Of a DNA stretch of 64,000 nucleotides, positions 9,485 through 12,947 are shown in pieces. Both the position numbers and the translations under genes were made by a program. How positions within the stretch are numbered: position 1 is the first letter of the stretch; each line of letters opens with the position of its first letter. The notes below the pieces were generated by a model, which ran no database searches, was not told the origin of the DNA, and saw only the letters and a list, made by a program, of their open reading frames with translations. Source of the stretch: Nitrospirota bacterium (lineage in GTDB: Bacteria; Nitrospirota; JACRHL01); assembly GCA_029881725.1 (NCBI GenBank), contig JAOUMB010000013.1, positions 1-64,000 on the forward strand. Reading direction: 5' to 3'.

Positions 9485-9757
9485 TCGGTTTGAGGCCGAT
9501 GGAAAGCTCCGCCTGACTGTTGGATTTCGTGTAACCCGCCGGTTCTAAACGCACTCGAAAAAAAACTGAAAAATTGCCGCAAAAACCGTTGCGTGTTTGA
9601 GCGATCGGACCTACATTTCCCACGTTCGGTCAACCGGACCCACCCGCAAGGTTCGCCCCCATGGGATCGAAACCGTAAGCCGAATCTGCCCCCCTGCGGA
9701 GCGCGTGGTGCCTTTCGTGATGGGGAGTGGAACCGCGTTCTGCTCGGGAGGACCATA

Positions 9758-11698
9758 ATGAGCCGGAACAAGACCACCGCGCCGCGCCGGGTGGCGCGGC
9801 GCCGCACCCTGGGCCCGGTGCCCGATCTTCAGGCCCATGTCACCGGTGACTGGTGGCGACAGATTTTTAATCCTTTGTACCTCAAGACCGACGGTGACGT
9901 GGTGGGCGATGCGGAGATCACCCGTGGCGAGGTGGCGCGCATTGTCGACCTGCTGGCCCTGCCTCCGGATGCCAGGGTGCTCGACCTGTGTTGTGGGCAG
10001 GGGCGTCACACCTTGGAACTGGCCCGGCGCGGGCTGGTCAATGTGGAGGGGCTGGACCGTTCTCACTACCTGATCCAAAAGGCCCGCGAGGCCGCTCGCA
10101 AGGACGGGCTGAAGGTGCGTTTCCGCGAAGGCGACGCGCGCAAGCTGCCGTTTCCCGCCGACCGTTTCGATGCGGTGCTGATTCTGGGTAACAGCTTCGG
10201 CTATTTCGAGAGTTTGCAGGACGATCTGGACGTGCTGCGGGAAGTGCTGCGGGTACTCAAACCGTGGGGCCGGGTGGTGATGGATCTGGCCGACGGGGAC
10301 TACCTGCGCGAGCACTTCCAGCCCCGCTCCTGGGAGTGGATCGACCGCAACATGTTTGTTTGCCGGGAACGCTCCCTGTCCGACGACGGCGACCGCCTGG
10401 TATCGCGCGAGGTGGTAACCCATGTGGAAAAAGGGGTGCTGGCGGACCAATTCTACGCCGAGCGGCTCTATTCACGGGAGTCCATCGGGCGTCTGCTGGT
10501 CCGTGCCGGATTTCACGACACCGCTTTTCCGGAAGAGGCGGTGCGCACCGCCTCGCAACGGGATCAGGACCTGGGCATGATGGCCCAGCGCAACATCGCC
10601 ACAGCCGTGGCCCGCAAGGACTGGAGTCCCAAGCGTAAAACCGCCGCGGGGGCCCGTCACGTGGTGGTGTTGATGGGAGACCCGGAGCGGCCCGATGCCC
10701 TGAAGCCGCTTACGGTGTTCGACGATGACGATTTTTACACCATCGACCGCATGAAGGACGCCCTGGCGGAACTGCCGGGCTACAAGTTCACCTACCTGCA
10801 CCGCCACGGCACCCTGATCCAGGACCTGGCCAAGCTGGTGGGCAAGGTGGACTATGTTCTGAACCTTTGTGACGAGGGATTCAACAACGACCCGCGCCTG
10901 GAACTGCACGTGCCTGCCATGCTGGAGATGCTCGGTATCCCCTATACCGGCTCCAACCCCCAATGTCTGGCCTATTGCTACGACAAATCGCTGGTGCGCG
11001 GTATTGCCAAGGAAATGGGCCTGCCCACGCCGCAGGCGGTATTTTTGCAGGCCGAGGACATGGCATATGAACTGCCGTTTCCGTTTCCGGCCATCGTAAA
11101 ACCCAACTTTGGCGATTCCAGCTTCGGCATTAACGTGAACAGCGTGGTGCATACCCCCGAGGCGTTGATCGATCAGGTGCGCGCGATCCGCGATCAGTTT
11201 GGTTATGACAAACCTGTACTGGTGGAGGAATTCCTCACCGGCAAGGACATCACCGTGGGGATTATCGGAACTCCACCGGCCGACTACACGGTGCTTCCGG
11301 TGCTGGAGGAGGACTATTCCGACCTGCCCGCCGATCTTCCGCGTATCTGCGGTTATGAGGCCAAATGGCAGCCGGACTCACCCTATTCGGTGCTCAAAAG
11401 CCTGCCAGCTGGGCTTCCCGCCGGAACCGAGCAGGCGTTGGTGGAGTGGTGCGTGGCGCTGGCTGAGCGGCTGGAATGCCGGGACTACATGCGTTTTGAC
11501 TGGCGCCTGGATGCCGACGGCGTGCCACGCTTGCTGGAAGCCAACCCCAACCCGGGCTGGTGCTGGGACGGCCATCTGGCCAAGATGGCCGGGCTGATGG
11601 ACATCGGCTATGGCGACATGCTGGCAGCCATCCTGCGCGCCGCGGAACAACGAATCGGACTGACCGCTGAACTGGCTGTTCCGGTGGAAACCGGCTGA
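9758..11698 (+). CDS. Fusion: SAM-dependent methyltransferase + D-Ala-D-Ala-ligase-like ATP-grasp enzyme
   Basis: 646 residues from ATG 9758, preceded by GGGAGG. The frame is open 55 codons further upstream, but without a good start signal. Residues about 50-270 are a class I methyltransferase: motif I VLDLCCGQGRHTLELA, acidic GLDRS, DARKLPFP, and VLILGNSFGYF. From about residue 298 an ATP-grasp domain of the D-alanine-D-alanine ligase type follows: IPYTGSNPQCLAYCYDK, PAIVKPNFGDSSFGI, VLVEEFLTGKDITVG and the metal site LLEANPNPGW (about 592). The enzyme probably joins two amino-acid-like units with ATP and methylates the product or a precursor. Genuine Ddl is not fused to a methyltransferase and is normally found near murC or ftsQ, so this is probably not cell-wall Ddl. 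The antiporter gene starts four bases after its stop. Confidence 0.88.
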   Translation: MSRNKTTAPRRVARRRTLGPVPDLQAHVTGDWWRQIFNPLYLKTDGDVVGDAEITRGEVARIVDLLALPPDARVLDLCCGQGRHTLELARRGLVNVEGLDRSHYLIQKAREAARKDGLKVRFREGDARKLPFPADRFDAVLILGNSFGYFESLQDDLDVLREVLRVLKPWGRVVMDLADGDYLREHFQPRSWEWIDRNMFVCRERSLSDDGDRLVSREVVTHVEKGVLADQFYAERLYSRESIGRLLVRAGFHDTAFPEEAVRTASQRDQDLGMMAQRNIATAVARKDWSPKRKTAAGARHVVVLMGDPERPDALKPLTVFDDDDFYTIDRMKDALAELPGYKFTYLHRHGTLIQDLAKLVGKVDYVLNLCDEGFNNDPRLELHVPAMLEMLGIPYTGSNPQCLAYCYDKSLVRGIAKEMGLPTPQAVFLQAEDMAYELPFPFPAIVKPNFGDSSFGINVNSVVHTPEALIDQVRAIRDQFGYDKPVLVEEFLTGKDITVGIIGTPPADYTVLPVLEEDYSDLPADLPRICGYEAKWQPDSPYSVLKSLPAGLPAGTEQALVEWCVALAERLECRDYMRFDWRLDADGVPRLLEANPNPGWCWDGHLAKMAGLMDIGYGDMLAAILRAAEQRIGLTAELAVPVETG

Positions 11699-11702
11699 CC
11701 GG

Positions 11703-12947
11703 ATGCACCTGGATCCGGCCATGCCCGCGCTGGTAGGGGCGCTGCTGGCCATTCTGGCAGTGGGGCTGCTGTTGCGATTGCTGCGGCAGCCCCACGTGGT
11801 TGGCTACCTTCTGGTGGGCGTGGGACTGGGGCCCCACGGTCTGGCCCTGATCACAGACGAGCCGACCCTTTCCCGTCTGGGCTCCGTGGGTGTGATGCTA
11901 CTGTTGTTTTTTGTGGGCATGGAGGTCCATCCGCGTGAACTGATGCGGGGATGGAAGGTGGCCGTGTTCGGCACCGGACTGGGTACCCTGTTGATCGTCG
12001 CCGGTGTGGCGCTGATCGGCACCTGGCGGGACTGGCCCATGGGGCGGGTGGTGTTGCTTGGTTTTATCGTCAGCCTTAGCAGCACCGCCGTGGTGCTGAA
12101 GCTGCTGGGGGACGCGCGGGAATTGGAAAGCCGTATCGGGCAGGGAGTTTTATCCATCCTGCTGGCTCAGGACCTGGCACTGATCCCGATGCTTGTAATC
12201 ATCTCGCTTTTGGGTGGCGACAACCTGTCCGGTGGGCAAATGGCGGCCCAATTGGCGGGGACCGCGGTGATCGCCGGGGTGGTCGGGTGGATGATTCGCT
12301 CCCCCAGGATCAGCCTGCCATGGCTGCGTTCCCTGCGCGGCGATCATGAAATGGAGGTGTTTGCCGCCCTGGCATTTTGCCTGACCCTGGCATTGGTCAC
12401 CGGCTTGACCGGACTGTCTACCGCGCTGGGGGCGTTTTTGGCCGGCATGCTGGTGGGCACCGCGCATGAGGGTGACTGGATTCACCGCCATCTGGCGCCG
12501 TTCCAGGTGGTGTTTCTGGCTCTTTTTTTCGTGTCGGTGGGCATGCTGCTGGACCTGGGCTTCCTGCGTGAATCCTTCACGCTGGCGCTGCTGCTGGTCA
12601 TGCTGGTGCTGATCGCCAAAACGGCGGTCAATGCGGTGCTGCTTAGGCTGTTGCACACCAACTGGAGAGATGGCCTGTATGCCGGGGCGCTCCTGGCGCA
12701 AATCGGGGAATTCAGTTTCGTGCTGGCAGCGGTGGGATTGCAGGCGGGGCTGATTGGCCGGTATGGCTACCAGATGGGGATTTCGGTGATTACCCTGTCG
12801 CTGGCGGTTAGCCCGTTGTGGATTGCCGCGTTCCGGATACTGACTGGCCAGCGCCGGAGGCCGCTTACCCCTTTGGAGCCGGATTTCCCAGCCGGGCGAG
12901 TTGAGTCTCCAGCGTCTCCAGCAGGCAGCGTGACACGTCCGGAGTAA
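11703..12947 (+). CDS. Kef-type cation:proton antiporter (CPA2 family)
   Basis: 414 residues with about 12 hydrophobic segments and the conserved Na+/H+ exchanger core GFIVSLSSTAVVLKLL plus LAQDLALIPML. It lacks the C-terminal TrkA-N nucleotide-binding domain of KefB/KefC; the tail after the last helix is only about 35 residues. It should exchange K+ or Na+ for protons across the inner membrane. It starts four bases after the ligase/methyltransferase fusion without its own strong ribosome-binding site, so translation is probably coupled. Its last 83 bases overlap the 3' end of the convergent gene at 12865-13416. Confidence 0.88.
   Translation: MHLDPAMPALVGALLAILAVGLLLRLLRQPHVVGYLLVGVGLGPHGLALITDEPTLSRLGSVGVMLLLFFVGMEVHPRELMRGWKVAVFGTGLGTLLIVAGVALIGTWRDWPMGRVVLLGFIVSLSSTAVVLKLLGDARELESRIGQGVLSILLAQDLALIPMLVIISLLGGDNLSGGQMAAQLAGTAVIAGVVGWMIRSPRISLPWLRSLRGDHEMEVFAALAFCLTLALVTGLTGLSTALGAFLAGMLVGTAHEGDWIHRHLAPFQVVFLALFFVSVGMLLDLGFLRESFTLALLLVMLVLIAKTAVNAVLLRLLHTNWRDGLYAGALLAQIGEFSFVLAAVGLQAGLIGRYGYQMGISVITLSLAVSPLWIAAFRILTGQRRRPLTPLEPDFPAGRVESPASPAGSVTRPE

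Follow-up and report, generated by a model that had tools for sequence, protein, structure and literature searches.

A solitary methyltransferase–Ddl-like ligase fusion conserved across bacteria and archaea is a candidate enzyme for an N-methylated dipeptide-like compound

The window analysed here is a stretch of 64,000 nucleotides from a Nitrospirota bacterium (contig JAOUMB010000013.1, positions 1 to 64,000). It carries a gene in which a SAM-methyltransferase is fused to a Ddl-like ATP-grasp ligase, followed by an antiporter gene. The features of this locus and the evidence for each are:

9746–9752, + strand: GGGAGGA, probably the ribosome-binding site for the fusion (read in the sequence)
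9758–11698, + strand: fusion gene, 646 aa, SAM-methyltransferase and Ddl-like ATP-grasp ligase (open reading frame, Pfam, 80 of 80 loci)
9812–10612, + strand: methyltransferase domain, residues 19–285, including a cap region like that of NmbA (Pfam, alignment with 9RI2, model)
10655–11665, + strand: Ddl-like ATP-grasp ligase domain, residues 300–636 (Dala_Dala_lig_C, Foldseek to Ddl structures)
10721–10732, + strand: acidic cluster DDDD, residues 322–325, near the position of Ddl Glu15 (alignment)
11348–11368, + strand: omega-loop CGYEAKW, residues 531–537 (alignment with the genome's own Ddl)
11543–11575, + strand: substrate loop NPNPGWCWDGH, residues 596–606 (alignment with the genome's own Ddl)
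11703–12947, + strand: CPA2-type cation/proton antiporter, 414 aa (Pfam PF00999)

The fusion gene starts with an ATG downstream of GGGAGGA, and its homologues start at roughly equal positions. The Pfam analysis of the protein gave matches to Methyltransf_25 (residues 74–171, 1.9e-22) and Dala_Dala_lig_C (residues 418–626, 1.5e-19), and its AlphaFold model had a mean pLDDT of 87.4. The reading frame, Pfam and the model together confirmed the claim of the initial annotation that one 646-residue frame contains both domains. It should be noted that the pTM of the model was 0.58, that the mutual facing of the two active sites is not fixed by it, and that its confidence is low in the linker at about residues 290–299. 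The stop codon of the fusion ends at 11698 and the ATG of the antiporter lies at 11703, which leaves the gap of four bases that had been described; judging from this 4-bp gap only, the two genes may be co-transcribed. The antiporter matched Na_H_Exchanger (8.8e-58) and had no Pfam domain besides this transmembrane one. Its earlier designation as Kef-type holds at the level of the CPA2 family but not further, as the protein stayed below the NCBIfam cut-offs for KefC (175.1 against 752 bits), KefB and MagA, and below that of the general CPA2 subfamily (177.9 against 238.3 bits).

Relatives of the fusion were sought with an alignment of three close homologues, taking one genome per species, and at least 500 matches were obtained. 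The best 80 of these were used for the comparison of identity and gene order in the family. All 80 contained the full-length fusion in one open frame and with the same domain order. As this single frame is shared by 80 of 80 best relatives, we conclude that the fusion is one protein and not the product of chance, of a frameshift or of a sequencing error. Two of the three outcomes that the initial annotation had named as refuting it, absence from close relatives and two genes joined by error, were thus not observed. The pairwise identity among these 80 proteins ranged from 58 to 99% (median 65%), and 185 of the 646 positions, spread over both domains, were conserved in at least 97% of them. Beyond the fusions, the top matches fell to about 41% identity or below and covered one domain only, which sets the fusions apart as a clean family. 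Above about 41% identity, neither split nor single-domain versions were encountered, except for three broken or interrupted archaeal copies with frame changes, stops or missing stretches (L137, G217:C53; L138, G333:C2; L139, G215:C1), which suggest recent loss or assembly errors. The genome of the Freyarchaeota locus L064 contained two full-length copies (G208:C12:143343-145238 and G208:C32:339308-341173).

The bacterial hosts among the best 80 relatives belonged to Nitrospirota, Myxococcota and other former deltaproteobacteria, Planctomycetota, Omnitrophota, Atribacterota and Chloroflexota, with one Patescibacteria contig that was assigned to a 0.8-Mb genome. The archaeal hosts in this set were Methanoculleus, Methanophagales, Methanomethylovorans, Lokiarchaeota, Jordarchaeia and Freyarchaeota. 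The distribution was patchy in the window's own phylum, where 7 of 198 genomes carried the fusion; in the phylum of Methanoculleus it was found in 28 of 197 genomes, many of them assembled in one or few contigs. The tree of the fusions placed several phyla at more than one position and archaea among bacteria. A part of this scatter may come from mis-binned contigs. The Promethearchaeota and Methanoculleus groups of the tree were coherent, and the latter contained isolates. We infer that the gene moved as one unit across phyla and across the boundary that separates bacteria from archaea. Scans of IMG/VR for viral carriage of the fusion gave nothing, and none of the plasmid records covered 80% of the fusion protein.

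The ligase part of the model matched Ddl crystal structures with a TM-score of about 0.8, normalised to the target (Foldseek). Its residues were read from an alignment with the genome's own Ddl, with Ddl numbering and residue roles as in E. coli DdlB. Conservation was seen at the ATP/Mg residues K410, K448, E490, D581, E594 and N596, the last being the Mg ligand retained in the invariant NPNPGWCWDGH loop, and the donor-site arginine of the Arg255 type was retained as well. The acceptor side is remodelled. In the triad Ser150-Tyr216-Glu15 of Ddl, the serine is retained, Tyr216 is replaced by Trp537, which is invariant in the family alignment (A3), and Glu15 corresponds at best to an Asp of the DDDD cluster, of which residues 322, 324 and 325 are invariant in the same alignment. 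The Ser281-Leu282 pair, which holds the second D-alanine in Ddl, is replaced by Gly605 and His606 inside the invariant GWCWDGH. Cys371, Cys531 and Cys602, each at least 97% conserved, align around the Ddl substrate pocket, where they could possibly bind a metal or a thiol.

The score of the fusion against the Ddl family TIGR01205 (NCBIfam) was 105.8 bits and did not reach the cut-off of 245.65, and the window's genome holds a separate true Ddl (180.6 bits). The presence of this separate Ddl, the occurrence of the fusion in archaea without peptidoglycan and the rebuilt acceptor side argue strongly against D-Ala-D-Ala synthesis, and the role of a cell-wall Ddl was ruled out. In archaeal genomes with the fusion, such as that of L106 (Lokiarchaeota), no further Ddl-like gene matched at E<=1e-10. 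The gene contexts of single-domain relatives pointed to no substrate in common.

In the methyltransferase half, the SAM-motif positions D76, C79, G80 and G82 were conserved. The nearest solved methyltransferase was 9RI2 (1.4e-28, aligned over residues 30–252), and the next one matched at 4.4e-14 or worse. The structure 9RI2 is that of NmbA of Chlorobaculum tepidum, an enzyme shown to methylate the amine nitrogen of the cysteine in bacillithiol (PMC12719100). The fusion is 31–36% identical to NmbA, the cap region included. By analogy, an amino-acid-type amine is a reasonable candidate for the methylated group; nitrogen as the target atom is only a lead, since the identity is in this range and stand-alone methyltransferases without an assigned function are about equally close to NmbA. 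BshC was found in none of 23 genomes, 22 of which bear the fusion, while the positive controls matched. Given that none of these 22 genomes has BshC, bacillithiol was rejected as the substrate.

No conserved neighbour gene was observed across the 80 loci of many phyla, outside closely related groups, and several fusion copies had opposite-strand genes on both flanks. The antiporter adjoins the fusion only here and in one relative, G003 (35-bp gap, 66% identical), and it is absent from G001, a third member of the family, where the fusion is present. The expectation that it would be a conserved partner was therefore rejected, this being the one outcome observed among the three that the initial annotation had listed as refuting, and it is probably a local neighbour outside the function of the fusion. 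When 106 adjacent genes were compared with 106 distant ones (top 25 families per tally), no Pfam family was clearly enriched. In four related archaeal genomes (L124, L135, L136 and L141), a CitMHS-type permease lies upstream of the fusion on the same strand. As no neighbour is conserved, we conclude that the gene acts alone, presumably on common metabolites.

Taking these results together, we propose, with a probability of about 0.55, that the fusion is a bifunctional enzyme, sufficient by itself, whose product is a small, dipeptide-like molecule with an N-methyl group. Both halves look active, as the SAM-motif and ATP/Mg residues are conserved. The Ddl-type domain would use ATP to convert the carboxylate of an amino-acid-like donor into an acyl phosphate, which would be attacked by a second, amine-bearing molecule, the acceptor being other than D-alanine. 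The NmbA-like domain would methylate an amino nitrogen, either in the donor or in the product, and the outcome would be an N-methylated compound resembling a dipeptide. The fusion, its conservation, its key residues, its patchy occurrence and the lack of conserved neighbours are observed; we infer the substrates, the methylated nitrogen, the order of the steps and the identity and purpose of the product. The precursors would have to be common metabolites, since no dedicated partner genes are needed and the gene moved alone between phyla and domains. The product could be a redox or thiol buffer, a solute, a metal ligand or a signal, and the data do not choose among the four. The initial annotation had also read the fusion as making and methylating a small molecule; this part of it is the best supported, by the relation to NmbA and the Ddl-like donor site, whereas its proposed connection with the antiporter found no support.

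The unusually slow evolution of the fusion would likewise agree with a substrate that is a macromolecule. In the manner of RimK-type ATP-grasp enzymes, by which glutamates are added to a protein, the fusion might modify a protein or another macromolecule by methylating a terminal amine and attaching an amino acid. The very slow, protein-wide change in both domains speaks for this, as does the occurrence of stand-alone genes in scattered genomes, even one assigned to the 0.8-Mb Patescibacteria genome. However, the ligase has a complete Ddl-like fold and belongs with the Ddl enzymes that act on small molecules, the methyltransferase is closest to a small-molecule methylase, and a universal protein target is ill-suited to the patchy presence, so that we consider such a role unlikely.

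The initial annotation had connected the antiporter with osmotic or pH conditions under which the product is needed. N-methylated amino-acid derivatives are common osmolytes, and a compatible solute or pH protectant made in the same response would be in keeping with the spacing of 4 bp here and 35 bp in G003. It would also be in keeping with the ion transporters located next to the fusion elsewhere (a CitMHS-type one in the four archaeal genomes named above and in a Lokiarchaeon, CorA in Atribacteria and MgtE in bacterium 42_11). In spite of these examples, membrane proteins were not enriched (11.7% near the fusion against 9.2% far from it), and the ion-transport families, which were picked after the fact, made up 6 of 110 genes beside the fusion and 11 of 445 further away, a difference that is not significant (Fisher p = 0.12). 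Besides, G001 keeps the fusion without the antiporter, and the combination of NmbA-like and Ddl-like domains indicates no known osmolyte pathway. We therefore find the solute reading rather improbable, and the results do not support the antiporter link.

A special case of the small-molecule enzyme that we favour would be the synthesis of a low-molecular-weight thiol. Here, the ligase would couple cysteine with a small acceptor, and N-methylation of this cysteine by the NmbA-like domain would yield a new thiol redox buffer for organisms without bacillithiol. The nearest solved methyltransferase being a bacillithiol N-methylase, the absence of BshC from 22 of 22 fusion-bearing genomes tested and the three near-invariant cysteines around the aligned pocket all point in this direction. 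Against it, an identity of 31–36% to NmbA is not enough to define the substrate, the ligase differs in kind from BshC, no thiol-disulfide partner gene adjoins the fusion, and other thiols may exist in the hosts. Matches to the glutathione family GSH-S_ATP also appeared in control genomes for which no glutathione synthesis would be expected, and were probably RimK-like relatives. On balance, this special case appears doubtful. That the two halves have unrelated activities on different substrates and are tethered only for stoichiometry is very improbable: they could fold independently and are joined by the low-confidence linker, but above the level of about 41% identity the family showed no split or single-domain version apart from the three broken archaeal copies.

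No paper on a methyltransferase–Ddl-like fusion was found in the open-access literature searched. What is notable is how broadly and how strongly both bacteria and archaea have conserved an uncharacterised bifunctional enzyme that stands alone in the genome. An identity of at least 58% between Nitrospirota, Planctomycetes, Lokiarchaeota and methanogens points to a metabolite worth acquiring for many mostly uncultivated organisms. Cultured isolates of Methanoculleus and closed genomes of archaea also carry the fusion, which makes experiments practical. Should its product turn out to be a thiol or an osmolyte, this would help to explain what takes the place of glutathione or bacillithiol in the archaea and bacteria that lack them. 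There is a slim chance that the family represents a new N-methylated low-molecular-weight thiol or peptide cofactor common to archaea and bacteria and made by one horizontally transferred enzyme; such a cofactor would be a cross-domain counterpart of glutathione or N-methyl-bacillithiol, with one polypeptide replacing a pathway.

Among the known systems, NmbA (9RI2, C. tepidum CT1040) shares with the fusion the N-terminal signature W(W/F)...F..LYLK, the SFGYFE motif and the similarity across the Rossmann core and the cap region. In contrast to the fusion, it is a stand-alone protein of 266 aa found in BshABC genomes, and the SWEW and QDLGMM motifs are added in the fusion. Ddl (PF07478) has in common with the ligase half the complete fold, the ATP/Mg residues, the Arg255-type donor residue and an acidic residue near Glu15. 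The fusion differs from it by Trp for Tyr216, by Gly-His for Ser281-Leu282, by another N-terminal loop and by the added methyltransferase, as well as by its occurrence in archaea without peptidoglycan and, here, beside a true Ddl.

The Ddl-like ligases of two other loci, L027 and L029, are about 29–37% identical to the ligase half, and in some of them, as in the fusion, the loop begins with NPNP or a C-x-Y-x-AKW loop is present. They have no methyltransferase and, unlike any fusion locus seen, are located in biosynthetic operons. The operon of L027 (4103–8868), which comes from the window's phylum, contains KamA, an ATP-grasp-like gene, two tandem Ddl-like ligases and a GNAT gene, and possibly makes a beta-lysine-containing peptide. 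In L029 (4500–9981), on a plasmid of Thioflavicoccus mobilis, a Ddl-like ATP-grasp gene directly follows diaminopropionate genes (SbnA-like, ornithine-cyclodeaminase-like and transaminase) with a KamA gene opposite, and the whole looks like a small peptide pathway.

In the biosynthesis of mycosporine-like amino acids, a methyltransferase and a Ddl-like ligase (MysC/MysD) act on one molecule; the genes of that pathway are separate and clustered, whereas the fusion had no such cluster in the 80 loci. N-acetylglutaminylglutamine synthetase, which is paired with asnO, is a GNAT and ATP-grasp fusion making a small peptide. Its transferase is an acetyltransferase and not a methyltransferase, and its ligase belongs to another ATP-grasp branch; our fusion matches methyltransferase and Ddl-type families only, without a GNAT domain. 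The two proteins nevertheless share the same plan, in which a domain transferring a small group is fused to an ATP-grasp ligase.
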